Assembly: GCF_902833145.1 (NCBI RefSeq)
Contig: NZ_CADFEN010000005.1
Coordinates: 310,001 to 374,000 of the forward strand
DNA length: 64,000 nt
Source of the DNA: Burkholderia sp. BCC0506
GTDB taxonomy: Bacteria > Pseudomonadota > Gammaproteobacteria > Burkholderiales > Burkholderiaceae
Reading direction: 5' to 3'
Below are positions 1,162 through 64,000 of this stretch, piece by piece; position 1 is the stretch's first letter; each line of letters opens with the position of its first letter. The notes under the pieces are model-generated. The model saw only the letters and a list, made by a program, of their open reading frames with translations. It was not told the origin of the DNA and ran no database searches. Position numbers and translations under genes: made by a program.

Positions 1162-1168
1162 GCCGCTC

Positions 1169-45092: not shown

Positions 45093-45111
45093 GCGGAGGC
45101 GGGCGGCGCGC

Positions 45112-47038: not shown

Positions 47039-47045
47039 CCCGGCT

Positions 47046-47339: not shown

Positions 47340-47797
47340 GATCGCTCCAGGAGTGGGTTTCCGCCGCGGGAGGATGGGCGGCCGGCTCAGTATAGGACAC
47401 CGGGAAAGCCGTTGACGGCGTGGTTTGCCGGCGCGGCGACGGGTATTCGCGGGGTGGCTCTTTTTGAACGACGCATGGAGGGCGATATCATGGTGTTCTT
47501 CCTTAAACGCAACTAACAGTCTATTTTTTCAACGTCGGCAAATTGCCCGGTTCGCCGGCCTCGACGCATCCTCGTGGCAAATTCGTCTACAGGAAATGAG
47601 GGCCCGCCACGCGTATTCCGGGTCCGGATTTCGCATGCCGGCGGGGTGGGCGGGCGGATCGAAAACGACGGGAACAGCCTCCCTGGCCGTCCGCACGGGC
47701 GGTGCGCGAGAGCGTTTCCATTGGGCCGGAATGCGACCTATGCTGAACGAATCCGGAGCGAACGCCGTTCGCCCGATTCATCCAGACGAGGTGTGCC
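47340..47797. other. 458-bp gap; one tiny ORF with a good ribosome site
   Basis: No normal gene was found. A 13-codon ORF (47475-47516, MEGDIMVFFLKRN) contains an internal ATG at 47490 preceded by GGAGGG at ideal distance, and a T-run follows the stop. The remaining DNA holds the YciI promoter on the left and that of the deacylase on the right. Confidence 0.35.
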
Positions 47798-48286: not shown

Positions 48287-48743
48287 GCGATGCCGGTCGC
48301 GCGTCGATGACGCATGCGCGGGCATTTTCCCACCGGGCTCGGTGAAGGGGAGATGCCCGTGTGCGCCGAGCGTCGGGCAATGCATTCACGCCGATGCAGC
48401 CACATGCTGCGTCGGAAAAGAGATTCGTTGTCCGGATAATTGTGTGGATTCGATCGGTAGGAAAAGCTCTTTTGTTTTTGATTCGGAATCCTTTCTAGGT
48501 AAGCGATGGGTCCGTTCGAACATCTCATGAACAAGCCCTGGCTACGCATGAAAACGGCCGATCGGCTTCCATCCGTGCATGAGACAACGAAACGTATCCG
48601 GCGATGCTTGCGTCGGGCGCGCCGATTCGGTGCACCGCACTAAATTGGTGACTGTTTATATTGGACTCACTCGATTGGTGCGATTTCATACAAAATAATT
48701 ACTGAACAAATGGAAAATGGTTAATGAGGTTTACTAACTCGTA

Positions 48744-48778
48744 ATTCGAGTAACGCCTCCAAACTTTGTATTCGAGTA
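48744..48778. repeat. ATTCGAGTA direct repeats before the tonB-operon promoter
   Basis: Exact 9-bp copies at 48744-48752 and 48770-48778 (26 bp apart). The second ends 11 bp before the -35, a classic activator or repressor position. Confidence 0.55.
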
Positions 48779-48789
48779 TCAAATAAAGT

Positions 48790-48819
48790 TTGACGCCCAA
48801 ATTTTTTCCTTGCTATCTT
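48790..48819 (+). promoter_or_regulatory. sigma70 promoter of the tonB-exbBD operon
   Basis: TTGACG (48790-48795) and TATCTT (48814-48819), 18-bp spacer, in a T-rich context; predicted transcript start near 48826, about 310 nt before tonB. Confidence 0.6.
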
Positions 48820-48999
48820 CTGCACCCAAGAAGAACGGCCTGGCTGACATCAGCGCGTAACGAAGCACCAATCGTCATGCGAAGGTATGCCAGCGTCGAC
48901 GCAGCTGACAAATGCCTGAATGCGCTGGTTCGGGGTGGGCGCCGGATAGGGCGGCTATCCCGTTGCAGTTGAAACGATTCCTTGAAATTGAATGAACAG

Positions 49000-49029
49000 G
49001 ATCCGAAGCCGATGCTTTCAATTCGGATC
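49000..49029 (+). other. leader hairpin upstream of tonB
   Basis: GATCCGAA (49000-49007) pairs with TTCGGATC (49022-49029), loop 14 nt, inside the long leader and about 110 nt before the start codon. Confidence 0.5.
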
Positions 49030-49137
49030 ACTAATTGAATTAAAAATGAAATTTCGTGATGAGACGGAGACGGAGCCGACCCGGTTCCGGAGCCGGTCAT
49101 CGTCGCGAAACTGGGCGATTCGCTTGGGGGATGGATA

Positions 49138-49845
49138 GTGGGCATGAAAGTCGAAGAGCATCTGGTTGCTTCGAACAGCGGGCTGGCCACGCTAGGGCGT
49201 CCGCGAGAATTCGGCAAGAAGCAGCAGAATCCGGTGCGCCGTTTCGGCGGCATCGCAGTCGTCCTCCTGTTGCATGCAGTGCTGATCTACGCATTGCTCA
49301 ACGGCCTCGCGACGAAAGTCGTGCAGGTGATCCAGCATCCGATCGAAACCCGCATCATCGAGCCGGTGAAGCCGCCGCCGCCACCGCCGCTGCCGGTCGT
49401 CAAGCTTCCGCCGCCGAAGTTCGCGCCGCCGCCGCCGCCGTTCGTGCCGCCGCCGGAAGTGCCGGTGCAGGCACCGCCGCAGGCGGCGCCGATCACGCAC
49501 CAGTCGGCACCGGTGCCGTCCGCGCCGGCCGTGCAGGCGCCGGTCATCGCACCGCCCGCGCCTGCCAAGCCGGTCAGTCACGAAGTGGGGGTCGTCTGCC
49601 CGAATTCGGACTCGATTCGCGCGTCGATGCAGTACCCGAAGGAAGCGCAGGAAAACAACATCACGGGTGACGTGACGATCGAGTTCGTCGTGGATGCGGA
49701 AGGGAACATCACGAACGAACGCGTGGCCCAGTCGGCCGACCCCGTGCTCGATCGTGCGGCCTACAACACCGTGAAGCGGTTCAAATGCGTGGCGCAAGGC
49801 CAGGCAGTACGGGTGCAGGTGCCGTTCTCGTTCAACCTGAATTGA
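49138..49845 (+). CDS. tonB: TonB energy-transducing protein
   Basis: A 235-residue TonB. One N-terminal helix (GGIAVVLLLHAVLIYALL) keeps the family's His-containing face. A Pro-rich periplasmic spacer (about residues 75-150) and a C-terminal TonB domain follow (SMQYPKEAQENNITGDVTIEFVVDAEGNI ... VAQSADPVLDRAAYNTVKRF, in pieces). It transmits proton-motive energy to an outer-membrane receptor. GTG 49138 was used since GGGGGA sits about 8 nt upstream; ATG 49144 is an alternative. First gene of tonB-exbB-exbD-exbD-TPR. Confidence 0.9.
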   Translation: MGMKVEEHLVASNSGLATLGRPREFGKKQQNPVRRFGGIAVVLLLHAVLIYALLNGLATKVVQVIQHPIETRIIEPVKPPPPPPLPVVKLPPPKFAPPPPPFVPPPEVPVQAPPQAAPITHQSAPVPSAPAVQAPVIAPPAPAKPVSHEVGVVCPNSDSIRASMQYPKEAQENNITGDVTIEFVVDAEGNITNERVAQSADPVLDRAAYNTVKRFKCVAQGQAVRVQVPFSFNLN

Positions 49846-49931
49846 CGTAGTGGGCGGTCCGGCGGAAGCCGGACCGGGGAAAACCGGCTCGAACTCAGAT
49901 AGTAAGTTCAACGAAAGAATTGGAGTGGGGT

Positions 49932-50831
49932 ATGACGAAGCGTTCTCTGGCCGCGCTGGCGGCAAGCCTGTTGATGTCCGTCGCTGCAATCGACGGGCTC
50001 GTTGCACCGCAACTCGCTTACGCGCAAGCGAGCGGATCCACGGCGACATCCGACGCCTTGACACAGGCCGCGGCGCCGGCGCCGTCCGCCGCCGAGCCGG
50101 CTCCGCCGCCGGCGCCGGCCACGACCGAAGCGGTCGAGAATCCGTACGGGCTCGGCGCGCTATGGAAGAACGGCGACTTCGTCGCGCGCTTCGTGCTGAT
50201 GCTGCTCGTGATCATGTCGATGGGCAGCTGGTACATCATGATCACGAAGTTCGTCGAGCAATTGCGGGCGAACCGCCGCGCGAAACTCGCCGATGCGCAG
50301 CTCTGGAGCGCGCCGTCGCTGGCCGAGGGCGCGAAGTTGCTCGACGAGGCGTCGCCGTTCCGCTTCATCGCCGAGACGGCGATCGAGGCGGGCGAGCATC
50401 ACGACGAGGCGCTGCTCGAAGCCGTGGATCGCAATACGTGGATCGACGTGTCCGTCGAGCGCTCGATCACGAACGTGTCGAACCGCCTGCAGGACGGGCT
50501 CGCGTTCCTGGCGACGGTCGGCTCGACGGCGCCGTTCGTCGGGCTGTTCGGCACGGTCTGGGGGATCTACCACGCGCTGACGGCGATCGGGATCGCGGGT
50601 CAGGCGTCGATCGACAAGGTCGCGGGCCCGGTGGGCGAGGCGCTCATCATGACGGCGATCGGCCTGGCGGTCGCGGTGCCTGCCGTACTCGGCTACAACT
50701 TCCTGGTCCGGCGCAACAAGTCGGTGATGGAGCGGGTCCGCAACTTCGGCGCCCAGCTGCATACCGTGCTGCTGGCCGGCAGCAAGCGTCCCGCTCGCGC
50801 GCCGTCGCCTGCCGCGTCGCTCGTGAACTGA
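49932..50831 (+). CDS. exbB: ExbB proton-channel protein with signal peptide
   Basis: A 299-residue MotA/TolQ/ExbB protein with an unusual N-terminal extension: a cleavable signal (ends LAYA-QASG) and a Pro/Ala-rich linker. TM1 is FVLMLLVIMSMGSWYIMI, and the core TM2-TM3 is LAFLATVGSTAPFVGLFGTVWGIYHAL and ALIMTAIGLAVAVPAVLGYNFL, with the conserved Glu at EALIM. GGAG precedes ATG 49932. It forms the pentameric channel around ExbD. 86 bp after tonB. Confidence 0.92.
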   Translation: MTKRSLAALAASLLMSVAAIDGLVAPQLAYAQASGSTATSDALTQAAAPAPSAAEPAPPPAPATTEAVENPYGLGALWKNGDFVARFVLMLLVIMSMGSWYIMITKFVEQLRANRRAKLADAQLWSAPSLAEGAKLLDEASPFRFIAETAIEAGEHHDEALLEAVDRNTWIDVSVERSITNVSNRLQDGLAFLATVGSTAPFVGLFGTVWGIYHALTAIGIAGQASIDKVAGPVGEALIMTAIGLAVAVPAVLGYNFLVRRNKSVMERVRNFGAQLHTVLLAGSKRPARAPSPAASLVN

Positions 50832-50851
50832 CCGGCTGACGGAGGCGCGCG

Positions 50852-51274
50852 ATGGGCATGAACGTCGGGCAGGACGAAAGCGACGAGGTGATCGCGAACA
50901 TCAACACGACGCCGCTCGTCGACGTGATGCTGGTGTTGCTGATCATCTTCCTGATCACGATTCCGGTCGTCACGCACACGATCCAGCTGCAGTTGCCGAA
51001 GGAGGTCGTGCAGCCGCTGCAGACCACGCCGAAGAGCGTCGAGATCGCGGTGAACCGCGACGGCGATTTCTTCTGGGGCGAGCAACTGGTGGATGCGTCG
51101 ACGTTGCTCGTGAAGCTGAAGGGGGTGTCGCAGCAGCAACCGCAGCCGAGCGTGCACGTGCGGGGCGACCAGAACACGCGTTACGAGTTCATCGGCCGCG
51201 TCATCACGATGTGCGAGCGGGCGGGTATCGCGAAGGTGTCGTTCATTACGGAACCGCCGGCGCGTGGCGGTTAG
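50852..51274 (+). CDS. exbD: ExbD proton-channel protein, copy 1
   Basis: A 140-residue ExbD/TolR. N-terminal tail, one helix with the essential Asp (Asp24 in NTTPLVDVMLVLLIIFLI), and a periplasmic domain (EIAVNRDGDFFWGEQLVD). It is the first of two ExbD genes. The last gap before copy 2 is 18 bp. Confidence 0.92.
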   Translation: MGMNVGQDESDEVIANINTTPLVDVMLVLLIIFLITIPVVTHTIQLQLPKEVVQPLQTTPKSVEIAVNRDGDFFWGEQLVDASTLLVKLKGVSQQQPQPSVHVRGDQNTRYEFIGRVITMCERAGIAKVSFITEPPARGG

Positions 51275-51292
51275 CCTTGACAGGAGCAGAAG

Positions 51293-51724
51293 ATGGGAAT
51301 GAACGTGCCTTCGGGCGGGAGCGGCAGCGAGCCGGACGTGATGGTCGACATCAACACCACGCCGCTGATCGACGTGATGCTGGTGCTGCTGATCATGCTG
51401 ATCATCACGATCCCGATCCAGATGCATTCGGTGAAGATGGACCTGCCGGTGGGTAACCCGCCGCCGCCCGCTACCCAGCCGGAAGTCGTGCAGATCGATA
51501 TCGACTTCGACGGGACGACGACGTGGAATGGCGCGCCGGTGCCGGACCGCGCGGCACTCGAGGCGAAGCTGACGCAGGTCGCGCACGAACCCGTGCAGGC
51601 GGAGATCCATCTGCGGCCGAACAAGCTGGCGCCGTACAAGGACGTGGCGGCCGTACTGGCGTCCGCGCAGCGCGTGGGCGCGACGAAGATCGGCCTGATC
51701 GGCAACGAGCAGTTCATGCAATGA
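51293..51724 (+). CDS. exbD: ExbD proton-channel protein, copy 2
   Basis: A 143-residue ExbD/TolR with the same plan but diverged sequence: Asp27 in NTTPLIDVMLVLLIMLII, Pro-rich segment GNPPPPATQPEVV, then IDIDFDGTTTWNGAPVPD. Two ExbD proteins with one ExbB occur in other specialised TonB systems, allowing mixed complexes. Its ATG follows AGGAG. Confidence 0.92.
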   Translation: MGMNVPSGGSGSEPDVMVDINTTPLIDVMLVLLIMLIITIPIQMHSVKMDLPVGNPPPPATQPEVVQIDIDFDGTTTWNGAPVPDRAALEAKLTQVAHEPVQAEIHLRPNKLAPYKDVAAVLASAQRVGATKIGLIGNEQFMQ

Positions 51725-51740
51725 CGGGACAGACCGACCG

Positions 51741-52931
51741 ATGAACCAGCGACGATGGAAACGGATGATGGCGGTGACGGCGCTCGGGGCCGCCTGCGCG
51801 CTCGGCCGGCCGGCGTGGGCGGCCGACGCGCTGCGCCCCGATGTGGCGAAGCCGCTGGCGGCGGCGCAGGAGCTGTATCGCGCGCACAAGTATCGCGATG
51901 CCCTCGGCAAGATCGCGCAGGCGGCCGCCGTGCCCAACCGCACGCCGTATGAAACCTACATGGTGGAAGCGACGCGCGGCGCGACGGCGATGGCGGCCGG
52001 CGACACCGGCGTGGCCGCGCAGGCCTACGAAACCGTCCTGAACTCGGGGCGCCTGTCGGGCGACGAAGAGCAGCGGACGACGGCGGCGCTCGCCGGGATC
52101 TATTTCCAGCAGAAGAACTATCCGCAGGCGATCCGCGTCGCGCAGCGCTACCTGAAGGCGGGCGGCACGGATCCGGAAATGCACACGCTGCTCACGCAGT
52201 CGTATTACCTGTCGAACGATTGCAGTCAGGTTGTGAGCCAGCTGAAGGCGAGCACGGATGCACAGGCGAAGGCCGGCCACGCGCCGGACGAAGCGCAGTT
52301 GCAGATGCTGGCGACCTGTGCGCAGAAGAGCAAGGATACCGGCGCGTATCGCAACGCGCTCGGCATGCTGGTGGCTTATCATCCGAGCCCCGCGTACTGG
52401 GACGAAATGGTTTCGGCCATTCGCGGCAGCCCCGGTTACCTGTCGTCGCTCGACCTCGACATCTACCGGCTGCGCAGGGCGACGGGCTCGCTCACGACGG
52501 CCGATGCCTATATGGAGATGACGCAGCTCGCCCTGGTGGCCGGAACGCCGGCCGAAGGCAGGCAGGTGATCGACCAGGGATTCGCGTCCGGCGTGCTGGG
52601 CAAGGATGCGCAGGCGGACCGCGAGAAACGGCTGCAGGCGCTGGCCGCCAAGCGTGCGCAGTCGGGCTCGGATGCCGCCAATCCGGTGGCGCCGATCGAC
52701 GCCGGCATGAATCTCGTGTTCGCGGGCCACGCGGCGCAGGGGCTGTCGATGATGGAGCAGGCGATCGCGAAGGGCGGGATCGAGCATCCCGATGCGGCGC
52801 GGCTGCGGCTCGGCGAGGCGTATTACGTGGCGGGCCAGAAGGCCCACGCGCTCCAGGTGCTGCGCACGGTGAAGGGTACCGACGGATCAGGGGATCTGGC
52901 GAAGCTCTGGACCGCCGTCGCGTCGCGCTGA
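51741..52931 (+). CDS. secreted TPR-repeat protein of the TonB operon
   Basis: A 396-residue exported helical repeat protein. The signal peptide ends near PAWA-ADAL. TPR-like units run throughout (LAAAQELYRAHKYRDALGKIAQAA; TTAALAGIYFQQKNYPQAIRVAQRYLKAGG; LRLGEAYYVAGQKAHALQVLRTV). It has several Cys. It is the last gene of the tonB-exbB-exbD-exbD unit, 16 nt after exbD. A role in scaffolding or sensing within the periplasm is an inference. I know similar genes in comparable TonB loci, but no defined function. Confidence 0.85.
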   Translation: MNQRRWKRMMAVTALGAACALGRPAWAADALRPDVAKPLAAAQELYRAHKYRDALGKIAQAAAVPNRTPYETYMVEATRGATAMAAGDTGVAAQAYETVLNSGRLSGDEEQRTTAALAGIYFQQKNYPQAIRVAQRYLKAGGTDPEMHTLLTQSYYLSNDCSQVVSQLKASTDAQAKAGHAPDEAQLQMLATCAQKSKDTGAYRNALGMLVAYHPSPAYWDEMVSAIRGSPGYLSSLDLDIYRLRRATGSLTTADAYMEMTQLALVAGTPAEGRQVIDQGFASGVLGKDAQADREKRLQALAAKRAQSGSDAANPVAPIDAGMNLVFAGHAAQGLSMMEQAIAKGGIEHPDAARLRLGEAYYVAGQKAHALQVLRTVKGTDGSGDLAKLWTAVASR

Positions 52932-53241
52932 CGGGATGCAGCGGAAGGCAGGTGCCCGACGATGGGCGCCGTGCCGCGTACACGAGGTAGGACGGTGATC
53001 TGACGGAAGCTGACGGCAGGGAAGTCTGTCTGGACGAAGATAAGGGGCAGTCTTGTTAATTAGCAAACCGAATGAAATGAGCGTGAATCGCGCGGCCGAG
53101 AGGCGGGAGTCCCGTTTCTCGCCGCATGCGACGCGCGCCCGGCGGCGAAGCGGAACGGCGTGTCGCGCCGCGGCAGCCTCATGGCATCGGGCAAGGCGTG
53201 CCGACATCAAACCGATTTCGATTGAGAGGGTCCGCTCTTCC
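52932..53241 (+). other. 310-bp gap before the cupin regulator
   Basis: No convincing gene. The middle (about 53045-53090) is AT-rich with TTGTTAATTAGC and probably holds the regulator's promoter. An in-frame ORF extends upstream to 53053 but lacks a ribosome site and has atypical Arg-rich content. Confidence 0.4.
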
Positions 53242-53817
53242 ATGGTCTTGCCTCCCGATGAATCGGTGCTCGTCGCGATTTCGCTCGGCAACAAGATCCG
53301 CTCGCTTCGACAGCGCCTGAACCTCACGCTCGACGAAACGGCCACGATGGCAGGAATCTCGAAGCCGTTCCTGTCGCAGGTCGAGCGCGGGCGCGCGACG
53401 CCGTCGATCACGTCGCTGGTCCGAATTGCGAAGGCGCTCGGTGTGACGATGCAGTACTTCATCGATACGCCAACCGAGGCGCGCTCGGTGTGCCGCGGCG
53501 ACGCATTGCAGTATTTCCAGTTCACCAACTCGGCGAGCTCCTTTGCCCGGCTGACGAATCTCGTGGACGGTCGCAAGCTCGAGGCGATTCTCGTCAGGAT
53601 ACCGGCGGGGCAGTCGCCGTCGGAAGTGACGACGCATGCAGGCGAGGAGTTTCTCTACGTGATGCGCGGCAGGATCGCGCTCACGCTGGAGGATTGCACG
53701 TTCGTGCTGAGTGCGGGCGACACCGCGCACTACGAGTCGACGATGCCGCATGCGTGGCACAACACGGCCGACGAAGATGCGGTGATCGTCTGGGTCGGTA
53801 CGCCGCGGCTGTTCTAG
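53242..53817 (+). CDS. XRE-cupin transcriptional regulator
   Basis: A 191-residue regulator. HTH_3 domain (GNKIRSLRQRLNLTLDETATMAGISKPFLSQVERGRATPSITSLVRIAKAL, in pieces over residues 16-65) and C-terminal cupin (HAGEEFLYVMRGRIALTL, GDTAHYESTMPHAWHN) with His/Glu metal-type residues. It sits between the TonB operon and the receptor gene, so local control of either is likely. The ligand is unknown. ATG 53242 follows GAGAGGG. Confidence 0.9.
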   Translation: MVLPPDESVLVAISLGNKIRSLRQRLNLTLDETATMAGISKPFLSQVERGRATPSITSLVRIAKALGVTMQYFIDTPTEARSVCRGDALQYFQFTNSASSFARLTNLVDGRKLEAILVRIPAGQSPSEVTTHAGEEFLYVMRGRIALTLEDCTFVLSAGDTAHYESTMPHAWHNTADEDAVIVWVGTPRLF

Positions 53818-54066
53818 CCCGTCGTGCCGGAATTATTCGAAACGGAAAGAAAGCGTGCGCACAATGCAAGTCATAAGTCATGCAAATTAAATAACGAGAA
53901 AGAGACGTGTCGCGTTCGCGCTGCACGGTCGGTCCGTTCGGGTCGAGGTGGTTGGCAGGTCGGCAATGGCGGGCTCCGGCACACGGATGCCCAGGACGCG
54001 CGACGGAATTCACAAGGTTCCGACGCGCAGCGGGTGGGGTCTTACTGACGAGCGAGAGGGAACAAG

Positions 54067-56883
54067 ATGAAGCCGAGAGTTTTGGCGTTGGCCATCAAGA
54101 GGATAGTCTGGGCGGAGCTGGCGCTGACGGCCGCGCTGGTGCCGCCGGCGTTCGCCCAGAGCCAGCCGGCGCCGGGAGCCGCATCGATCGCGGACGCGGT
54201 CGCGAACGGCGCACCCGTGACCGTTGCGCAGGCGGACGGCACGGCGGGCGCCGTCGCTGCCGCGGGACCCGGTGCGGCAGCCGAGGCGACGCCTGCCGCG
54301 CCCGGCGCGAATGGGCAGGGCAAGGTCGCGCAGATCAAGCGGTTCGAAGTGACGGGTTCGCTGATCCGGCAGGCCGACAAGGTCGGCTTCAACCAGGTGC
54401 AGACCATCACGAGCAAGGACATCGAGAACAGCGGTCAGACCAGCGTCGCTGACTACCTGCGCAGCACCTCGGCGAATTCGGCAAGCAGCTGGAGCGAAGG
54501 TACGACGAACAGCTTCGCACCGGGCGGCGCTGGTATCGCGCTGCGCGGTCTCAGCGAGAAATACACGCTGGTGCTGATCGACGGCATGCGGGTGTCGCCG
54601 TATGCGTTCGCGGTGAACGGCAGCGATCAGTTCTTCGACCTGAACACGCTGCCGCTCAACATCATCGACCGTATCGAAATCGTCAAGACTGGCGCGGTGT
54701 CTCAGTATGGTTCCGACGCAATCGCGGGCGTGGTGAACATCATCACGAAGAAAAACTTTCAGGGTCTTGAACTGGGAGGCAGCTACGGTGGTGCGACGAA
54801 CGGTGAAGGCGGCCAGGGCACGACGAAGTTCAGCATCCTCGGCGGTTTCGGCGACCTGAACGCCGACCGCTTCAACGTGACGGCGGCGCTCAGCTACTAC
54901 AAGTCGAACGGCATCTCGATCGCCGATCGCGACACGACGCAAAACCAGAATTTCTCCAATTTCCCGGGCGGCTTGTCGAACCAGAGCGTCTCCTACTGGC
55001 GCAATCCGGCCACCGGCGCGAAGGTGCCGCTGAGCCCGTGTCCGAACGGAGGCCAGGCCGTGCCGGGCACCTCCGTCGCGCAGGTCAACGGTCCCGGCAC
55101 GGTGTGCGCAAACAACACCGCGTACGCATCGTCGCTGTCGCCGTGGACTGAACGCCTGAGCGCGAAGGTGCACGCCGACTTCAAGATCAACGATGCGATG
55201 CAGGCGTTCGCGGATCTGTGGGAAAGCAACAATACGACGGTCACGAACAACTTCGTCGGCCGCCTCGGTAACAGCACGCAGACCTATGATCCGGCGACGG
55301 GCGGTCTCACCCCGATTTCGAACCTCGTGCCGGGCAGCAACCCGTATAACCCGTTTGGCGTGCCGGCGAAGCTGGTCTACGCATTTCCGGCCGCGCAGGC
55401 GGTGCATACGAGCTCCAACTTCTGGCGTGCCGCGACAGGCGTGAAAGGCTCGTTCAGCACGCCGCGTGTCGGGGATTGGGATTGGACCGCGTCCTACACG
55501 CATTCGCAGGACACGGTGTCGAACAACTATTCGAACCTGATCAACGCGGCCGCACTGAAAAATATCGTGCAGAACGGCGTGTTCGACTTCGCCAATCCAT
55601 CGTCGACACCGAACGGGTTGAACGGGCTGTACGGAAGCACGTCGACACAGGCCATCACGAAGCTCGACGCTGTCGACGCGACCCTGTCGACGCCGAACCT
55701 GTTCACGCTGCCCACGGGTAACGTCGGCCTGGGCCTCGGTACGCAATTCACGCACCAGAGCCAGTACATCGGCACGGGCGCGGACTACGCGAACGGCACG
55801 CTCATCCAGCCGGCGCTGCAATCGGTCAATGGCGAGCGCAACGTCGCGGCGGTCTACTACCAGATCGACATTCCGATCGTGAAGAACCTGACGTTCAGCC
55901 AGTCGGGTCGCTACGACCACTACAGTGACTTCGGCGGTGCGTTCTCGCCGCGCTTCGCGCTGCGCTTTCAGCCGATCCGCGAGCTGACGATGTACGGTTC
56001 GTACAACCGTGGCTTCCGCGCACCGACGCTGATCGAGAACACCTCGTCGAGGACCTACGGCGCGCAGGGCGCGGTCGATCCGAACGATCCTAACAACCCG
56101 AACGCATACAACCTCGTCGAGGAAGTGCAGGCCGGTAACAGCAAGCTGCAGCCGGAGCGGACCAAGAACTACAACATCGGCTTCCAGCTGTCGCCCACCC
56201 GCAATACCGATTTCGGCTTCGACTGGTACAAGATCCACATCGACAACGTGATTGGCACGGAAGACATCCAGACGGTGGTCGACCAGAACGATCCGTCGAA
56301 TGTGATCCGTAACCCGAACGGTTCGATCGCGTATGTGCGGCTGCCGTATATGAACCTGTCGTCGCTCGATACGGACGGCTTCGAGACGACCTTCCGTCAA
56401 TCGGTGTCGACCAAGATCGGTACTTTCACGCTGTCGGGTGACTGGGCCTACGTGTGGCACTTCAAGATGCCGATGGGCGGCGTGTCGACCGACTTCGCGG
56501 GCAACAACGGTTCGCTGAACGAGCCGTTCGGCGGCAGCTTCCCGCGCTGGAAGGGCAACACGAGTCTGAACTGGAACTACCACAACCAATGGAATGCGAC
56601 GTTGACGTGGATGTTCACGGGGCCGTACAGCCAGGCAATCCTGTCGCCCGGCCAATATCCGAACATGCAGGACAGCGTGGCTTCGTACAGTCAGTTCAAC
56701 CTGATGGTCAGCTACACGGGCTTCAAGCACTGGACGATCTATGCGGGCATCGACAACATCTTCAATCGTGCGCCGCCGTTCGACCCGGTTTATATGAACG
56801 CGAGTTACCAGACGGGCTACGACACGTCGCTGTACACGTATGTCGGTCGATTTGCGCAGGTTGGCGCGACCTACAAGTTCTGA
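54067..56883 (+). CDS. TonB-dependent outer-membrane receptor
   Basis: A 938-residue receptor. The signal peptide ends near PAFA-QSQP, then an Ala/Pro-rich linker and a plug domain (FEVTGSLIRQ...QTITSKDIENSGQTSVADYLR; GIALRGLSEKYTLVLIDGMR; DRIEIVKTGAVSQYGSDAIAGVVNIITKKN). A 22-strand barrel ends RFAQVGATYKF. There is no N-terminal signalling domain, so it is not an ECF-transducer type. Adjacent cupin regulator, TonB set and peptide ABC importer indicate uptake of a peptide-like or metallophore ligand. GAGAGGG is 8 nt upstream. The size is larger than most iron receptors. Confidence 0.92.
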   Translation: MKPRVLALAIKRIVWAELALTAALVPPAFAQSQPAPGAASIADAVANGAPVTVAQADGTAGAVAAAGPGAAAEATPAAPGANGQGKVAQIKRFEVTGSLIRQADKVGFNQVQTITSKDIENSGQTSVADYLRSTSANSASSWSEGTTNSFAPGGAGIALRGLSEKYTLVLIDGMRVSPYAFAVNGSDQFFDLNTLPLNIIDRIEIVKTGAVSQYGSDAIAGVVNIITKKNFQGLELGGSYGGATNGEGGQGTTKFSILGGFGDLNADRFNVTAALSYYKSNGISIADRDTTQNQNFSNFPGGLSNQSVSYWRNPATGAKVPLSPCPNGGQAVPGTSVAQVNGPGTVCANNTAYASSLSPWTERLSAKVHADFKINDAMQAFADLWESNNTTVTNNFVGRLGNSTQTYDPATGGLTPISNLVPGSNPYNPFGVPAKLVYAFPAAQAVHTSSNFWRAATGVKGSFSTPRVGDWDWTASYTHSQDTVSNNYSNLINAAALKNIVQNGVFDFANPSSTPNGLNGLYGSTSTQAITKLDAVDATLSTPNLFTLPTGNVGLGLGTQFTHQSQYIGTGADYANGTLIQPALQSVNGERNVAAVYYQIDIPIVKNLTFSQSGRYDHYSDFGGAFSPRFALRFQPIRELTMYGSYNRGFRAPTLIENTSSRTYGAQGAVDPNDPNNPNAYNLVEEVQAGNSKLQPERTKNYNIGFQLSPTRNTDFGFDWYKIHIDNVIGTEDIQTVVDQNDPSNVIRNPNGSIAYVRLPYMNLSSLDTDGFETTFRQSVSTKIGTFTLSGDWAYVWHFKMPMGGVSTDFAGNNGSLNEPFGGSFPRWKGNTSLNWNYHNQWNATLTWMFTGPYSQAILSPGQYPNMQDSVASYSQFNLMVSYTGFKHWTIYAGIDNIFNRAPPFDPVYMNASYQTGYDTSLYTYVGRFAQVGATYKF

Positions 56884-56916
56884 TGGCGATCGCGATGCAC
56901 TGACAGGCTTTGGACC

Positions 56917-56963
56917 GGCCGCTCCACGTCCACCTCCCCATTTTTTGGAGCGGCCCTTTTTTG
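56917..56963 (+). terminator. intrinsic terminator after the receptor gene
   Basis: A 10-bp stem GGCCGCTCCA (56917-56926) with 56946-56955, 19-nt loop, then CTTTTTT. Confidence 0.88.
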
Positions 56964-57123
56964 CCTGACGCCACGACGGCCCGCGACCGGGACGCGCGGC
57001 GATGCAGCTTGCAGGATCGTTGACAGCACGAACAACTAGTGGGATGCGGGCGGCACGCGGCATCCTGCACAGGCATCTACTGCGCGCAGGCATCGCGCCC
57101 GCACGCTTTCGGACAGACCGACC

Positions 57124-59004
57124 ATGAAACTGTTGAATTGGCGATGGGCAGGCGTGCCGCGCACGGCGCTGTTCGCGTGCGCCGTGCTGCTCGTGTCGGG
57201 TAGCGCCATGCCGCGTGCGGCGCTCGCCGTGCCCGCCATCGCGCAATACGACCAACCGAAATACCCGCCGGGCTTCACGCATTTCGATTATGCCGATCCC
57301 GACGCGCCGAATGACGGCACGCTCAATTTCCAGAACTACGACGAAGCGCAGAGCTACGATTCGCTGAATCCGTTCCTCGTGCGCGGCTCGCCCGCACCGG
57401 ACATCAAGAACCTGATGTTCGACACGCTGATGCAGCGCAGCTGGGATGAACTCGCGTCCGAATACGCGCTGATCGCCGACGACGTCGAGGTGGCGCCCGA
57501 CGGGCTGTCGGCCACGTTCCACATCAATACGGCCGCACGCTTCTCGAACGGCGACCCGATCACCGCGGCCGACGTCAAGTATTCGTTCGATACGCTCACG
57601 AGCCCGCAGGCGTCGCCGCTGTACAACGCGCAGTTCTCGATCATCAAGCGCGCGGTGATCGTCGACGGCCACACGATCCGCTTCGAGTTCAAGCACGCGG
57701 AGCGCGACGCCGCGCTGATCGCGGGCGACCTGCCGGTGTTCTCGCCGAAGTGGGGGCAGCGCCCGGACGGCACGCGGCCGCCGTTCGACCAGATCGCGAA
57801 CGTGCCGCCGATCGCGAGCGGCGCGTACCTGATCGAGCAGCGCAGGAACGACAAGCAGATCGCGTACGTGCGCAACCCGCACTACTGGGCCGCGAACCTG
57901 CCGTCGCGGCGGGGGATGTTCCGTTTCGCACGCGTGTCGTTCAAGCTGTATCTCGACCAGTACACGGAGCTCGAGGCGCTGAAGGCCGGCGATGTGGATG
58001 CGCGGGTGGAATACAGCTCGACGCAGTGGGCGCGCAAGTACGTCGGCAAGAACTTTCGCAGTGGGCTGCTGAAGAAGGGCGAATTTCCGGATGGCCCCGC
58101 GCAGATGCAGGGTTTCCTGATAAACCTGCGCAAGCCGATGTTCCAGGACGTACGCGTGCGGCATGCGCTCGCGTTGGCATTCGACTTCGACTGGATGAGC
58201 CGGATGATGTTCTACGGGCAGTACCGCCGTACCAGCAGCTTCTGGGAGGCGAGCCCGTTCGCGGCGTCCGGCATGCCGAGCGACAAGGAACTCGCGCTGC
58301 TCGAACCATTCCGGTCGACGCTGCCGCCGGAGGTGTTCGGCCCGATGGTCAAACAGCCGTCGACGCTGCCGCCCGGCTCGCTGCGCGCGAACCTCCGGCA
58401 AGCGCGCGACCTGCTCGCGCAGGCCGGCTGGCACTATCGCGACGGCGCACTGCGCGACGCGAACGGCACGCCGATGACGATCGAGATCATCGACGACCAG
58501 CCCGGCATGGATCGTGTGATCCTGCCGTACACGCAGGCGCTCGCGACGCTCGGCATCCATGCATATCTGCACGAGATCGACAGTGCGCTCTACCAGAAGC
58601 GGCTCGACAATTTCGAGTACGACATGACGACGTACATCTACTCGCCCGTGACGATCCCCGGGGCGGAGTTGACCCGCCGTTTCGGCAGCGAGGCCGCATC
58701 GCAGCCCGGCTCGGAGAACTATCCGGGCGTGAAGTCGAAGGCCGTCGATGCGCTGATCCGCGCGGCGCTCGCGGCCAATACGCTCGACGATCTCGAGACG
58801 GCCATGCACGCCCTCGACCGCGTGCTGATCAACCTGTACGTGCTGGTTCCGGAGTACTACGTGCCGAACGCGCGGATTGCATACAAGACGACGCTCGGCC
58901 ATCCGGCGGTCGTGCCGGTTTCCTATCAGTACGAGGACTGGATCATCGACTACTGGTACGCGAAGAAGCCGGCAGCACGACCACAACCCGCTCCGGCGGC
59001 CTGA
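57124..59004 (+). CDS. yejA: peptide ABC transporter substrate-binding protein, YejA-like
   Basis: A 626-residue SBP_bac_5 protein. The signal peptide is long (to about residue 36); YADPDAPNDGTLNFQNYDEAQSYDSLNPFLVRG is the family opening. The binding-protein core has DVEVAPDGLSATFHINTAARFSNGDPITAADVKYSFDTL (in pieces), and VRHALALAFDFDWMSRMMFYGQY lies in the second domain. YejA imports peptide-type compounds such as microcin C. First gene of yejABEF. Confidence 0.88.
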   Translation: MKLLNWRWAGVPRTALFACAVLLVSGSAMPRAALAVPAIAQYDQPKYPPGFTHFDYADPDAPNDGTLNFQNYDEAQSYDSLNPFLVRGSPAPDIKNLMFDTLMQRSWDELASEYALIADDVEVAPDGLSATFHINTAARFSNGDPITAADVKYSFDTLTSPQASPLYNAQFSIIKRAVIVDGHTIRFEFKHAERDAALIAGDLPVFSPKWGQRPDGTRPPFDQIANVPPIASGAYLIEQRRNDKQIAYVRNPHYWAANLPSRRGMFRFARVSFKLYLDQYTELEALKAGDVDARVEYSSTQWARKYVGKNFRSGLLKKGEFPDGPAQMQGFLINLRKPMFQDVRVRHALALAFDFDWMSRMMFYGQYRRTSSFWEASPFAASGMPSDKELALLEPFRSTLPPEVFGPMVKQPSTLPPGSLRANLRQARDLLAQAGWHYRDGALRDANGTPMTIEIIDDQPGMDRVILPYTQALATLGIHAYLHEIDSALYQKRLDNFEYDMTTYIYSPVTIPGAELTRRFGSEAASQPGSENYPGVKSKAVDALIRAALAANTLDDLETAMHALDRVLINLYVLVPEYYVPNARIAYKTTLGHPAVVPVSYQYEDWIIDYWYAKKPAARPQPAPAA

Positions 59005-59017
59005 CGGGGGAATAACG

Positions 59018-60070
59018 ATGCTGGCATACATATTGAGGCGCCTGCTGCTGATGATCCCGACGCTGATCGGGGTGGTGACGATCACGTTCGCGGTCACGCA
59101 GTTCGTGCCGGGCGGCCCGGTCGAACAGGTGCTCGCGCAATTGCGCCACGGCAGCACGCGCGGCGGGGAGGCGGGCGGAGGTGCGGGCGGCTACCACGGC
59201 AGCCAGGGCGTCGACCCGCAGCAGATCGAGCAGATCCGCAAGCAGTTCGGTTTCGACAAGCCGCCGCTGGAGCGCTATCTGCTGATGCTGAAAAGCTATG
59301 CGACGTTCGACCTCGGCCAGTCCTACTTCGCGCACCGCAGCGTGTGGGCGGTAATCCGCTCGAAGTTGCCGGTGTCGATCACGCTCGGACTGTGGACGGT
59401 GATGCTCACGTATCTCGTGTCAGTGCCGCTCGGCATCGCGAAGGCGGTGCGCAACGGCTCGCGGTTCGACACGGTGACGAGCGTGCTGGTGCTGACCGGC
59501 TACGCCGTGCCGGGCTTCGTGCTCGGCGTGCTGTTGCTGATGCTGTTCGGCGGCGGCACGTTCTGGCAGGTGTTTCCGATGCGCGGGCTCACGTCGGACA
59601 ACTTCGACGAGCTGACGCTGGCCGGCAAGACACTCGACTATCTGTGGCACATCGCGTTGCCGGTTACCGCATCGGTCGTCGGCAATTTCGCGATCGTCAC
59701 GATCCTCACGAAGAACACGTTCCTCGAGGAAATCGGCCGGCAATACGTGTTGACCGCGCGCGCGAAGGGCGCGCCGGAGCGCGACGTGTTGTGGAAGCAC
59801 GTGTTGCGCAATGCGGCGATTCCGCTGCTCACCGGGCTGCCGGCGGCATTCGTCGGCGCGTTCCTGAACGGCAACCTGCTGATCGAGACGCTGTTCTCGC
59901 TCGACGGGATGGGCCAACTGTCGTACGACTCGGTGATCCGCCGCGACTATCCGGTCGTGCTCGGCTCGCTGTTCCTGTTCACCCTGATCGGTCTGCTGAC
60001 CAAGCTCATCGCGGATATCTGCTATGTCCTCGTCGACCCCCGTATCCAGTTCAGCCGCCTGGACCACTGA
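59018..60070 (+). CDS. yejB: peptide ABC transporter permease, YejB-like
   Basis: A 350-residue oligopeptide-type permease with LRRLLLMIPTLIGVVTITF, a periplasmic Gly-rich loop (about 45-70), and the EAA-type loop EEIGRQYVLTARAKGAPERDVLWKHVLRNA. About six helices. 13 nt after yejA. With YejE it makes the channel. Confidence 0.92.
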   Translation: MLAYILRRLLLMIPTLIGVVTITFAVTQFVPGGPVEQVLAQLRHGSTRGGEAGGGAGGYHGSQGVDPQQIEQIRKQFGFDKPPLERYLLMLKSYATFDLGQSYFAHRSVWAVIRSKLPVSITLGLWTVMLTYLVSVPLGIAKAVRNGSRFDTVTSVLVLTGYAVPGFVLGVLLLMLFGGGTFWQVFPMRGLTSDNFDELTLAGKTLDYLWHIALPVTASVVGNFAIVTILTKNTFLEEIGRQYVLTARAKGAPERDVLWKHVLRNAAIPLLTGLPAAFVGAFLNGNLLIETLFSLDGMGQLSYDSVIRRDYPVVLGSLFLFTLIGLLTKLIADICYVLVDPRIQFSRLDH

Positions 60071-61136
60071 CCCGGCCGCCGTCGCGTGCGCGGCGTCGCC
60101 GTCGCCGTGGCGACGCACGTGGCTGCGGTTTCGCGCGCAGCGGCTCGGCTACTGGAGCCTCGTGATCTTTGCCACGCTGTTCACACTCAGCCTGCTGGCC
60201 GACGGATTGTCGAACGACCGGCCGCTGCTCGTGCGCTACGACGGACACTATTATTTCCCGATCGTGAAGGAGTATCCGGAGACGCAGTTCGGCGGCGATT
60301 TCCCGGCGAAGACCAACTATCTCGATCCGTACATCCGGGCGAAGATCGAATCGCACGGCAACTTCGCGATTTACCCGCCGAATCGCTACCGCTACGACAC
60401 GATCGACTATTTCGCGTCGCGGCCGTACCCGGCGCCGCCGTCCGCGAGCAACTGGCTCGGCACCGACCAGTTCGGCCGCGACGTGCTCGCGCGGCTGCTG
60501 TACGGGTTTAGGCTGTCGGTGCTGATGGCGCTCGCGCTGACGGTGTCGGGCGTCGCGATCGGCGTGCTGACGGGGGCGCTGCAGGGCTTCTACGGCGGGC
60601 GCACCGATCTCGTCGGGCAGCGCCTGATCGAGATCTGGAGCGCGCTGCCCGACCTGTACCTGCTGATCATCTTCGCGTCGATCTTCGAGCCGTCGCTGTG
60701 GCTGCTGTTCATCCTGCTGTCGATGTTCGGCTGGCTCGTGCTGTCCGACTACGTGCGCGCGGAGTTCCTGCGCAACCGCGCGCTCGACTACGTGAAGGCC
60801 GCGCGCACGATGGGGCTGTCGAACTGGCAGATCATGTGGCGGCACGTGCTGCCGAACAGCCTGACGCCGGTGATCACGTTCCTGCCGTTCCGGATGAGCG
60901 CGGCGATCCTGTCGCTGACGAGCCTCGACTTCCTCGGCCTCGGCGTGCAGCCGCCGACGCCGAGCCTCGGCGAGCTGCTGCAGGAAGGCAAGAACTACCT
61001 CGACGCGTGGTGGATCTCGATCTCCGCGTTCACGGCGCTGGTCGTCACGCTGCTGCTGCTCACGTTCATGGGCGACGCGCTGCGCAACGCGCTCGACATG
61101 CGCACGCGCGGTTCGGCCTTCGGCGGGGAGCAATGA
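60024..61136 (+). CDS. yejE: peptide ABC transporter permease, YejE-like
   Basis: A 370-residue DppC-type permease. The long N-terminal soluble segment precedes helices; the periplasmic loop has RYDGHYYFPIVKEYPETQFGGDFPAKTNYLDPYI, characteristic of YejE; then GTDQFGRDVLARLLYG and EAA loop RALDYVKAARTMGLSNWQIMWRHVLPNSL. Overlaps yejB by 47 nt; the first in-frame ATG was used as no better start is near. Confidence 0.92.
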   Translation: MSSSTPVSSSAAWTTDPAAVACAASPSPWRRTWLRFRAQRLGYWSLVIFATLFTLSLLADGLSNDRPLLVRYDGHYYFPIVKEYPETQFGGDFPAKTNYLDPYIRAKIESHGNFAIYPPNRYRYDTIDYFASRPYPAPPSASNWLGTDQFGRDVLARLLYGFRLSVLMALALTVSGVAIGVLTGALQGFYGGRTDLVGQRLIEIWSALPDLYLLIIFASIFEPSLWLLFILLSMFGWLVLSDYVRAEFLRNRALDYVKAARTMGLSNWQIMWRHVLPNSLTPVITFLPFRMSAAILSLTSLDFLGLGVQPPTPSLGELLQEGKNYLDAWWISISAFTALVVTLLLLTFMGDALRNALDMRTRGSAFGGEQ

Positions 61137-62776
61137 TGACGACGCCCTTGCTGGATATCCGGCGGTTCTCCGCGCACTTCGGCGCGAAAGCCGCCGTGCA
61201 GGACCTGAACCTCTCGGTCGGGCGCGGCGAGCGCGTGGCGCTCGTCGGCGAGTCGGGCTCGGGCAAGAGCGTGACGGCGCTGTCGATCCTGCGGCTCGCG
61301 CAGCACGCGACGCTGTCGGGGCAGATGCTGTTCGACGGCGAGGATCTGCTCGCGAAGACCGAGCAGCAGATGCGCGGCATCCGCGGCGCCGATATCGCGA
61401 TGGTGTTCCAGGAACCGATGACGGCGCTCAATCCGCTATATACGATCGGCAAGCAGATCGCCGAGAGCCTGCGGTTGCACGAGGGGCTGCGCGCGGGCGA
61501 CGCGCGCGAGCGCGGCATCGCGCTGCTGCGGCGCACCGGGATTCCGGAGCCGGAACGGCGCATCGACAGTTTTCCTCACCAGTTGTCGGGCGGCCAGCGG
61601 CAGCGCGCGATGATCGCGATGGCGCTCGCGTGCCGGCCGCGGCTGTTGCTCGCGGACGAGCCGACGACGGCGCTCGACGTCACCGTGCGCCAGCAGATCG
61701 TCGACCTGCTGATCGAACTGCAGGAGCAGGAGGCCGCCGCGCGCGGGATGGCCGTGCTGCTGATCACGCACGACCTGAACCTCGTGCGGCGTTTCGCGCA
61801 GCGCGTGGCCGTGATGGAGCAGGGCGTGCTCGTGGAGACGAACACGACCGGCGCGCTGTTCGCCGCGCCGCAGCACGCGTACACGCGCCGGTTGCTCGAC
61901 AGCGCGCCGCAACGCGCCGTCGAGCCCGTCGCGGCCGGCGCGCAGACGATTCTCGACGTGCAGCAGCTCGCCGTCGATTACCGCATCGCGGCGAAGGGCT
62001 GGCGCGCGATGTTCGGCAAGACGGCGTTCCGGGCCGTGCACGACGTGAAGCTGAGCCTCAGGCGCGGCGAGACGCTCGGGATCGTCGGCGAGTCGGGGTC
62101 GGGAAAATCGACGCTGGCGGCGGCCGTGCTGGGCCTGCAGCGACCGGCGTCGGGCGGCATCGAGATCGACGGCATGCCGCTGGCGTTGCTGCGCACGACG
62201 CGCGGCCGGCGCGCGCTGTACGGCCGCATGCAGGTCGTGTTCCAGGATCCGTTCGGCTCGCTGTCGCCGCGCATGACGGTCGAGCAGATCGTCGGCGAGG
62301 GGCTCGCCGTGCACCGGCCGACGGTGGCGGGCGCCGCGCGGCGCACGCGGATCGCCGCGCTGCTGCAGGAGGTCGGCCTGCCCGCCGAAGCGATGCTACG
62401 GTATCCGCACGAATTTTCCGGCGGCCAGCGCCAGCGCATCGCGATCGCGCGCGCGCTGGCGGTGGAGCCGGAGCTGCTGGTGCTGGACGAGCCGACCAGC
62501 GCGCTCGACGTGTCGATCCAGAAGCAGGTGCTGAATCTGCTGACGAATCTGCAAAAGAAGTACGCACTGAGCTACCTGTTCATCACGCACGATCTCGCGG
62601 TGATGCGCGCGATGGCTCACCGGGTCATCGTGATGAAGGCAGGACGCGTGGTCGAGGAGGGCGATACGCTCGACGTGTTGCACGCCCCGTCCCACCCGTA
62701 TACGCAGGCGCTGCTCGCGTCGTCGATGCTCGCACCGGAACCGGGGCCGCAGCAGACGGAAGGGAGACACGAATGA
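61133..62776 (+). CDS. yejF: duplicated peptide ABC transporter ATPase, YejF-like
   Basis: A 547-residue double ABC ATPase. First half: Walker A GESGSGKSV, signature LSGGQRQRAMIAMALA, Walker B LLLADEPTTALD, HDLN. Second half: GESGSGKST, SGGQRQRIAIARALA, LLVLDEPTSALD, ITHDLAVM. Both sites are intact. ATGA overlap with yejE. Energises YejBE transport. Confidence 0.94.
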   Translation: MMTTPLLDIRRFSAHFGAKAAVQDLNLSVGRGERVALVGESGSGKSVTALSILRLAQHATLSGQMLFDGEDLLAKTEQQMRGIRGADIAMVFQEPMTALNPLYTIGKQIAESLRLHEGLRAGDARERGIALLRRTGIPEPERRIDSFPHQLSGGQRQRAMIAMALACRPRLLLADEPTTALDVTVRQQIVDLLIELQEQEAAARGMAVLLITHDLNLVRRFAQRVAVMEQGVLVETNTTGALFAAPQHAYTRRLLDSAPQRAVEPVAAGAQTILDVQQLAVDYRIAAKGWRAMFGKTAFRAVHDVKLSLRRGETLGIVGESGSGKSTLAAAVLGLQRPASGGIEIDGMPLALLRTTRGRRALYGRMQVVFQDPFGSLSPRMTVEQIVGEGLAVHRPTVAGAARRTRIAALLQEVGLPAEAMLRYPHEFSGGQRQRIAIARALAVEPELLVLDEPTSALDVSIQKQVLNLLTNLQKKYALSYLFITHDLAVMRAMAHRVIVMKAGRVVEEGDTLDVLHAPSHPYTQALLASSMLAPEPGPQQTEGRHE

Positions 62777-62826
62777 TCGACGTGAAGCGGGCGCGGGGCG
62801 CCCGTGCCGTTCGCTGACGCACCGCG

Positions 62827-64000
62827 ATGCCGTCGTTCTTCATCGACCGCCCGGTGTTCGCGTGGATCGTCGCGCTCGCGATCGTCGTCGCGGGCGTGCT
62901 TGCCATTCCGCAATTGCCGATCGCGCAGTATCCGCGCCTTGCGCCGCCGCGCGTCGTGATCACCGCGACGTATCCGGGCGCGTCGACCGAGACGGTCGAC
63001 GGCGACGTCGGCAGCATCATCGAGGAAAGCCTCGACGGCGCCGACGGGCTGCAGTACTACCAGACGAGCAGCGACGGTCACGGCAATCTCGAGATCGACG
63101 TGACGTTCGCACCCGGCACCGATCCGGACATCGCGCTCGTCGACGTCAACAACCGGCTCAAGCAGGTCGAGCCGCGATTGCCGCAGCAGGTCGTGCAGCA
63201 GGGCATCGGCGTGTTCAAGGCGGCCAACACGTTCCTGATGCTCGTCACGCTCACGTCGACGGACGGCACGCGCGACTCCGCGCAGCTCGGTGACTATCTG
63301 AACCGCTACGTGCTGCGCGAACTGAAGCGCGCGCCGGGCGTCGGCGCGGCCGAGCTGTGGGACGCCGACGAGGCGCTGCGGGTCTGGCTCGATCCGAACA
63401 AGTTGCGCGAATACGACCTCGGCGCCGACGACGTAATCGCGGCCATCGGCGTGCAGAACGCGACGGTGACGGCCGGCGCGATCGGCGATGCGCCGTTCGT
63501 GCGCGGCCAGCAGCTCACCGCGACGATCGTCGTCAAGGGGCAACTGACGTCGCCGGAGGAGTTCGGCCGGATCGTGCTGAAGTCGAAGCAGGACGGTTCG
63601 GTGGTGCGCGTCGCCGACGTCGCCCGCGTCGAAATCGGCCGCGACGACTACTCGTTCTATTCCCGGCTGAACGGCCGTCCGGCAGCCACCGTCGGCATCC
63701 AGCTCGGCCCGCGCGGCAACGCGCTCGAAACGTCGAACGCGATTCGCGCGCGGCTGGCCGAGCTGTCGAAGACGCTGCCGCCGGGCGTCGCGGTCGAGAT
63801 TCCGTTCGACGGCGCGCATTTCGTGAAGATCGCCATCCGGGAAGTCGTGCTGACGCTCGTCGAGGCCGTCGTGCTGGTGTTCTGCGTGATGTGGCTGTTC
63901 CTGCGCGAGCTGCGCTACACGCTCGTGCCGACCGTCGTGATTCCCGTCACGCTGATGGGCGCGTTCGCCGCGATGTGGGCGTTCGGGCTGTCGATCAACG
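62827..64000 (+). CDS. RND efflux pump, inner-membrane component (partial)
   Basis: The first 391 codons are present; the gene continues beyond the window. It starts MPSFFIDRPVFAWIVALAIVVAG, with QYPRLAPPRVVITATYPGAS and the HAE1 loop DVNNRLKQVEPRLPQQV, as in AcrB/MexB-type pumps. No membrane-fusion gene precedes it, unlike most RND loci; yejF ends 50 nt upstream. It could share the yej transcript. Possible 14-codon remnant at its 5' side is noted separately. Confidence 0.9.
   Translation, partial: MPSFFIDRPVFAWIVALAIVVAGVLAIPQLPIAQYPRLAPPRVVITATYPGASTETVDGDVGSIIEESLDGADGLQYYQTSSDGHGNLEIDVTFAPGTDPDIALVDVNNRLKQVEPRLPQQVVQQGIGVFKAANTFLMLVTLTSTDGTRDSAQLGDYLNRYVLRELKRAPGVGAAELWDADEALRVWLDPNKLREYDLGADDVIAAIGVQNATVTAGAIGDAPFVRGQQLTATIVVKGQLTSPEEFGRIVLKSKQDGSVVRVADVARVEIGRDDYSFYSRLNGRPAATVGIQLGPRGNALETSNAIRARLAELSKTLPPGVAVEIPFDGAHFVKIAIREVVLTLVEAVVLVFCVMWLFLRELRYTLVPTVVIPVTLMGAFAAMWAFGLSIN

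Follow-up and report, generated by a model that had tools for sequence, protein, structure and literature searches.

A conserved TonB-to-YejABEF gene island of Burkholderia with a putative role in nutritional peptide uptake

Background

Peptide uptake in Proteobacteria is usually taken to begin with passive diffusion through porins; TonB-driven oligopeptide uptake is a property of the SusCD/RagAB-type systems of Bacteroidota. This paper describes a gene island, tonB-exbB-exbD1-exbD2-TPR-XRE/cupin-receptor-yejABEF, located in a stretch of 64,000 nucleotides (the window; G000:C5:310001-374000) of a 7.29-Mb, Burkholderia cepacia-complex-like genome. The island is probably a TonB-driven locus for the uptake of nutritional peptides and not a siderophore or antibiotic importer, peptides being its putative cargo. 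In contrast to the SusCD/RagAB-type systems, it possesses an ATP-binding cassette (ABC) importer, and no SusD-like lipoprotein was found among the genes read. If true, a TonB-powered peptide locus with a swappable receptor would name an entry route for nutrients and peptide-linked drugs in Burkholderia and Paraburkholderia, the regulon of which is directly testable by means of a 15-bp site.

With respect to regulation, the closest described system is that of PsdR of Pseudomonas aeruginosa, presented as an XRE-cupin repressor of dppA3 and of the metallodipeptidase gene mdpA (PMC7901475), with TTAAG-N5-CTTAA as its binding site (PMC10965056). As far as these sources describe it, the PsdR regulon shares with the island an XRE-cupin regulator, a 5-5-5 palindrome at promoters, and genes for a family-5 peptide-binding protein and peptidases. 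However, the island site reads TCAAA-N5-TTTGA, and the PsdR half-sites TTAAG/CTTAA were not found in the window, L072, or L104; here, the site also precedes genes for a TonB motor and its type of receptor, for a porin, and for a secreted sedolisin. With respect to transport, the island agrees with the microcin C/peptide importer YejABEF in the content and order of the four genes, and this importer is also the best NCBIfam match of the permeases, but the island genes form an accessory copy coupled to a TonB receptor. The TonB2 system of Vibrio vulnificus, which is reported to require the TPR protein TtpD2, similarly consists of an extra TonB-ExbB-ExbD set clustered with a TPR protein (PMC6957404), whereas the island has two ExbD genes, no TtpB/TtpC among the genes read, and no sign of iron control. 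In methanobactin uptake, the TonB receptor MbnT is described as paired with the OppA-related binding protein MbnE (PMC7558416). This resembles the combination of a TonB receptor and a YejA-like binding protein in the island, and the ligand of MbnT/MbnE is a peptide, but neither metallophore genes beside the island nor signs of metal control were seen. Among the papers listed by full-text literature searches, none described this locus, as judged by titles and abstract openings.

Results and discussion

Conservation and gene content

All genes from tonB to yejF are open frames on the + strand (49144-62776), preceded by 857 bp with a GC content of 0.51, versus mostly 0.62-0.73 per kb elsewhere in the window, in line with the adjacent genes and AT-rich upstream DNA that a first-pass annotation had read from the sequence. 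A Pfam scan of ten island proteins returned the expected families (TonB_C, MotA_ExbB, ExbD twice, TPR, HTH_3 with Cupin_2, plug with barrel, SBP_bac_5, and BPD_transp_1 twice), YejF being assigned by reading its translation and by its conservation. The TonB-ExbB-ExbD module adjoins the receptor and is distinct from the three other TonB_C loci above cut-off in this genome, which supports the earlier claim of import across both membranes with a dedicated energy module. This gene set is not a chance arrangement, because it is conserved as a unit in relatives. Five proteins were each searched against the same 150 Burkholderiaceae genomes, with cut-offs of E ≤ 1e-60 for the receptor and the sedolisin-like protein and of E ≤ 1e-30 for the TPR protein and an accessory TldD. 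YejA matches formed two groups, one of 69-100% identity, with 28 copies spread over 27 genomes (hereafter accessory yejA), and one of at most 56%, the latter taking in the second YejA copy of the genome of the window (54% identical to the island YejA). The receptor was present in 32 genomes, among which all 27 genomes with accessory yejA, and in 26 of these both genes lay on one contig within about 10 kb (the exception being G016), so that the joint conservation of receptor and yej genes, for which the first-pass annotation had proposed a neighbourhood survey, is borne out. Five genomes (G015, G036, G038, G052, and G058) carried the receptor without accessory yejA. The association of receptor with accessory yejA had a Fisher p of 4.7e-25, related genomes not being independent. 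Similarly, 23 of the 25 genomes with the TPR protein and 14 of the 15 with the accessory TldD belonged to these 27. Within the genus (15 genomes), receptor, accessory yejA, and TPR gene occurred all together in eight genomes and were all missing in seven.

Laying out 39 loci with accessory yejA, including the window (several cut off at one end; L017 and L065 represent the same contig, and L044 and L045 both come from G141), revealed two gene orders, namely tonB-exbB-exbD1-exbD2-TPR-cupin-receptor(-receptor)-yejABEF-[tldD-tldE]-[GNAT-GNAT]-RND (order A) and cupin-receptor-tonB-exbB-exbD1-exbD2-TPR-yejABEF, followed by a like tail and at times with a second cupin gene (order B). The tonB set was not in the fetched stretch of L009, L021, L023, and L034-L037. 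Among Paraburkholderia, P. oxyphila and P. silviterrae are examples of species with the set and its cupin gene. An RND gene was found 3' of the island in both orders, and in many relatives genes for TldD, TldE, and one or two GNAT proteins were inserted between yejF and this RND gene. The TldD of these relatives contained the Pfam family PmbA_TldD_3rd and the HExxxH motif (HESIGH at 248), and matched E. coli TldD in the PDB (7e-20). In L116, from another genome of the class, genes for a TonB receptor and a YejA-like protein (24% identity) were clustered with an Opp-type ABC set and with genes for TldD, TldE, and an M20 peptidase. Eleven loci (L105-L115) contained a TldD/E pair without yej or receptor matches, one of them with a 26% RND match. 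A separate observation concerns G071, which had the accessory TldD/TldE pair (L046:9242-11982) but neither the receptor nor accessory yejA.

The YejABEF importer and the exchangeable receptor

The accessory importer is composed of a family-5 solute-binding protein (SBP5), two permeases, and a fused double ATPase, in the order A-B-E-F. YejB and YejE found their best family among the NCBIfam Yej permeases, both below cut-off (434.6 versus 445 bits and 388.6 versus 439 bits, respectively), and YejF was 72-97% identical across loci with accessory yejA. The structure matches of YejA comprised 4ony (5e-105), MbnE (5icq; 1.9e-91), and E. coli-type YejA entries (about 1e-90).

The closest named relatives of the receptor (97% identity) were found in Burkholderia anthina, Burkholderia sp. 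MS389, and B. cenocepacia, and its NCBIfam BtuB/TonB-B12 scores were below the cut-offs (82.2 versus 836 bits and 96.4 versus 599.7 bits). In its structure model, 125 of the 938 residues had a predicted local distance difference test (pLDDT) score below 50, mostly within residues 1-109. The receptor slot has been refilled between clades, while the motor and ABC machinery stayed. Indeed, the receptors of L015, L043, L044, and L064 were 60-61% identical to that of the window, versus 83-96% for the other tabulated island proteins, and TonB of L043, L044, and L064 was 93-94% identical. Similarly, in a tree of 26 receptors, with six forks open and three outgroup rows that were long or odd in make-up, the island receptors fell into several supported groups: one with the window, L009, and L011a together with L010 and L012 (whose fetched stretches contained no accessory yej genes), one with L014, L015, L020, L021, L028, L030, L032, and L011b, and one in which the island receptor of L047 grouped with a second receptor of the genome of the window (receptor 2). 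Different receptors would therefore feed one importer.

Operator and regulator

Upstream of tonB, an exact palindrome (TCAAA-N5-TTTGA) overlaps the -35 box of a candidate promoter (TTGACG-18-TATCTT). The latter was the only promoter-like match on either strand of 48200-62900; this match alone proves nothing, since shuffles gave 1.9 matches on average, and the weight of the promoter call comes from conservation. Indeed, in a 12-locus footprint, the block ATCAAATAAAGTTTGACG...TTTTTTCCTTGCTATCTT was nearly invariant, the 300-nt leader behind it being variable. A conserved leader RNA upstream of tonB was also considered and rejected, the leader being poorly conserved in the 12 loci and the promoter block alone being kept. 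Of 2000 mononucleotide-shuffled versions of the stretch upstream of tonB, one contained the exact operator. The island regulator combines an XRE helix-turn-helix with a cupin domain, as in PsdR-like repressors, and is predicted to bind TCAAA-N5-TTTGA. All 27 loci with a cupin match of at least 50% had an exact site, upstream of tonB, cupin, or receptor. A site without a cupin match was present in two accessory-yejA loci, L009 and L023 (the latter beginning at a contig end), and L022 and L026 had a receptor and a site without yej. The exact site was not found in the accessory-yejA loci without cupin match L014, L016, L017, L018, and L034-L037, L060 being cut off; in L014, L016, L017, and L018, the same place upstream of tonB looks like a two-mismatch remnant, as in P. 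nodosa, and, as they are close relatives, this may have been one event.

Across the 7.29-Mb genome, the exact pattern occurred five times and a reversed control pattern not at all. Besides the tonB promoter, sites were located upstream of receptor 2; at the start of an XRE-cupin gene at C8, followed by genes for an SBP5, Dpp-type ABC proteins, and an OprD porin, with a divergent POT peptide transporter gene; upstream of a general porin gene; and 471 bp upstream of a secreted sedolisin gene. The regulator of this Dpp operon was 71% identical over 180 residues to that of the island, and the sedolisin matched the PDB sedolisin 1nlu (2.9e-112) in an alignment that includes the E-x3-D and GGTS motifs. 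This arrangement, a 15-bp palindrome with a 5-bp spacer upstream of peptide-uptake and peptidase genes, is that of a PsdR-like regulon. A search of 14 additional genomes of the genus gave 65 sites, distributed over 13 of them, versus eight for the reversed control. Part of the 65 were inspected together with their surroundings, in 17 short loci (L121-L137) and in 20 stretches that overlap with these. A site preceded the cupin-Dpp operon in seven genomes (G032, G049, G063, G073, G093, G126, and G134), and the pattern matches of six further genomes (G011, G083, G102, G110, G118, and G141) included the 15-mer of the Dpp site known from the genome of the window. Exact sites also occurred upstream of the porin gene in four genomes and between an M1 aminopeptidase gene and a divergent gene in two. 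Several sites had no query gene alongside and may be due to chance.

Upstream of the sedolisin gene, an exact site occurred in six of seven island-positive genomes of the genus (it was not found in G126) and beside no sedolisin gene in seven island-negative ones, which at first suggested an island-specific control. This was withdrawn because one-mismatch sites were found at the same place at the orthologues of four island-negative genomes and of the island-positive G141, while the stretches upstream of nine other sedolisin genes (L163-L171) contained no site even when one mismatch was allowed.

Some further observations were made on the operator and its surroundings. A second conserved motif, CTCCAAACTTTGT (window 48757-48769), is situated about 10 bp upstream of the operator and reads CTCCAAA(C/T)TTTGT in 11 of 12 aligned tonB promoters. 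NADPH-FMN-reductase-like genes occurred 3' of receptor-1-type genes in two Paraburkholderia (L010:13148 and L012:13063), and one adjoined an operator site in G134 (L153:4321-5552). The latter genome also encoded a secreted-looking protein of 363 amino acids behind an exact site (L143:5066-6154), with no Pfam or PDB match. Two island-negative genomes (L154:3244-4021 and L155) had a further exact site in common, adjacent to an XRE-cupin gene of 28% identity, near which L154 contained apparent glutamine synthetase and aminotransferase genes, giving it a PuuR-like look.

Proposed function and alternatives

The proposed strategy of nutritional peptide uptake may consist of several steps. Secreted proteases, such as the sedolisin sharing the operator, probably release peptides, which the large receptor would bind and which the dedicated TonB-ExbB-ExbD1-ExbD2 motor, with the TPR protein as a helper, would pull through the outer membrane. 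YejA would pass these peptides to YejBEF for import, after which they may be broken down by peptidases in the cytoplasm, a task that in relatives may fall to a dedicated TldD/E pair; E. coli TldD/E is described as degrading unfolded peptides without sequence preference (PMC5810440). The XRE-cupin protein would act as a repressor at TCAAA-N5-TTTGA over the -35 box and be released once peptides are sensed, the direction of this regulation being a prediction. More tentatively, the island could belong to a protein utilisation locus, a proteobacterial counterpart of the Bacteroidota type, with secreted proteases, exchangeable receptors, a private TonB-ExbB-ExbD1-ExbD2-TPR motor, YejABEF, TldD/E, and a PsdR-like operator, in which a receptor swap would change the peptides taken and leave the machinery constant. 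This extension is possible but doubtful, being weakened in that no such site turned up at the sedolisin genes examined in four order-B genomes.

Several observations weigh against nutritional peptide uptake under one operator. The accessory TldD is missing from the genome of the window itself (search at E 1e-30), the island of the window has no GNAT gene, and neither RND pump nor GNAT proteins are accounted for by plain nutrition, their roles in the island being conjectural. Sedolisin-like genes occur in 38 of the 150 genomes, comprising 20 of the 27 with accessory yejA and 18 others; the four island-negative genomes mentioned above have the one-mismatch site, and the four order-B genomes (L168-L171), which are of Paraburkholderia type, have no site within one mismatch upstream of the one sedolisin gene considered in each. 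Loci L034-L037, with receptor and/or accessory yej genes, have neither cupin match nor site. The receptor model, from the structure prediction that the first-pass annotation had suggested for the pocket, resembles many TonB receptors, BtuB first; such a fold match is silent on peptides and would not decide the ligand. No RagA/SusC-type chain was among the 50 structure matches listed for this model, which is not evidence against RagA/SusC likeness. Finally, receptor and yejA are separated by a terminator-like hairpin, GGCCGCTCC...GGAGCGGCC, with a 10-bp stem followed by a U run, and the gap between both genes contains no exact operator in the window. A similar hairpin was present in 12 of 17 loci hand-picked from the 39, including all four with swapped receptors, and in L062 it carried matching changes on both sides; a consensus terminator scan with a loop limit of 8 did not report it. 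To judge from its sequence, this hairpin may end or thin transcription before yej. The common regulation with tonB that the first-pass annotation had made a touchstone of its proposal is thus borne out in part, tonB and receptor 2 sharing the operator, and is in doubt for the yej genes.

The first-pass annotation had considered a peptide siderophore or an amino-acid-decorated antibiotic as ligand. Such cargo is not supported, because the genes sharing the operator mainly concern proteolysis, a porin, and peptide uptake, because no Fur box above shuffles was found at the tonB or receptor promoter, and because no Rfam match at gathering score, cobalamin riboswitches included, was found in 44000-64000. 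A peptide metallophore, whether self-made or pirated, might nevertheless be the cargo, in the way that methanobactin is taken up through MbnT and the YejA-like MbnE, with re-export by the RND pump. This reading draws on the published MbnT/MbnE pair (as described in PMC7558416), on the MbnE match of YejA, which rivals those of the E. coli-type YejA entries and is weaker than that of 4ony, and on the RND gene accompanying the island in either gene order. It is unlikely, as the best Fur-box match upstream of tonB (12/19) compares with a mean of 11.4 and a maximum of 14 in shuffles, no conserved synthesis genes adjoin the island (the neighbouring biosynthetic cluster of this genome was not seen over about 24 kb in B. 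anthina), and the operator is common to protease and peptide-uptake genes.

The presence of TldD/E, one or two GNAT genes, and RND 3' of yejF in many relatives would also suit a scheme in which a peptide antibiotic, or a ribosomally synthesised and post-translationally modified peptide, is imported by YejABEF and then disposed of, being cut by TldD/E, acetylated by GNAT, and expelled by RND. Indeed, NCBIfam names the permeases microcin C permeases, and TldD/E is described as acting on modified microcin B17 (PMC5810440). Importing a toxin for its destruction would, however, be a poor defence, the genome of the window has no accessory TldD and its island no GNAT gene, and the operator is common to dipeptide-uptake and protease genes, making this explanation quite improbable. 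Alternatively, the receptor might serve another nutrient (a sugar, lignin fragment, or cofactor) and merely neighbour a peptide importer, as its modelled fold is nearest to BtuB and TonB systems of Xanthomonas and Sphingobium are described as serving plant carbohydrate and lignin compounds. The co-occurrence with accessory yejA in 27 of 27 genomes argues against this rather unlikely option, as do distant receptors of the family (L050-L052), which adjoin other Opp-type ABC genes and an ExbD-like gene. Nutritional peptide uptake is thus the explanation that we favour.

Feature coordinates and neighbouring genes

Table 1. Positions of island genes and regulatory elements in the window
Feature	Position	Strand	Basis or remark
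Operator TCAAA-N5-TTTGA, exact palindrome	48779..48793	+	upstream of tonB
Sigma70-like promoter TTGACG-18-TATCTT (predicted)	48790..48819	+	-35 overlapped by operator
tonB	49144..49845	+	Pfam TonB_C, 60.8 bits
exbB	49935..50831	+	Pfam MotA_ExbB
exbD1	50852..51274	+	Pfam ExbD
exbD2	51293..51724	+	Pfam ExbD
TPR protein	51741..52931	+	Pfam TPR_16/TPR_19; N-terminus signal-peptide-like by reading
XRE-cupin regulator, start uncertain	53149..53817	+	HTH_3 and Cupin_2
TonB-dependent receptor 1, 938 aa	54067..56883	+	Pfam plug and TonB-dependent barrel
Terminator-like hairpin with U run	56917..56955	+	between receptor and yejA; -22.9 kcal/mol, z -3.0
yejA, family-5 binding protein	57124..59004	+	SBP_bac_5; YejA and MbnE structure matches
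yejB, permease	59012..60070	+	BPD_transp_1; NCBIfam YejB
yejE, permease	60024..61136	+	BPD_transp_1 and OppC_N; NCBIfam YejE
yejF, fused double ATPase	61133..62776	+	two ABC ATPase halves read in translation
AcrB-type RND pump gene	62827..64000, on to C5:375994 beyond the window	+	Pfam ACR_tran, 1056 bits

The RND gene starts 50 bp 3' of the end of yejF and is followed by receptor 2 (C5:376602-379415), which is 58% identical to receptor 1. Further 3' of receptor 2, LuxR and HxlR regulator genes precede an apparent polyketide synthase-nonribosomal peptide synthetase cluster. This cluster was considered as a source of the ligand and dropped, because in B. anthina (L061 and L102) the roughly 24 kb inspected 3' of receptor 2 showed no such cluster. 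It extends over L006:12901-19000 and L007:3616-8421 (C5:384901-399421) and includes genes for an MFS exporter, an amine oxidase, a thioesterase, and LuxR/HxlR regulators. An IS110 transposase gene, possibly a remnant, is located directly 3' of receptor 2 (L006:7580-8365). At the other end of the window (94-3023), genes for an asparagine-synthase-like protein and a glycosyltransferase and a hydroxylase-like gene perhaps represent the end of another biosynthetic cluster.

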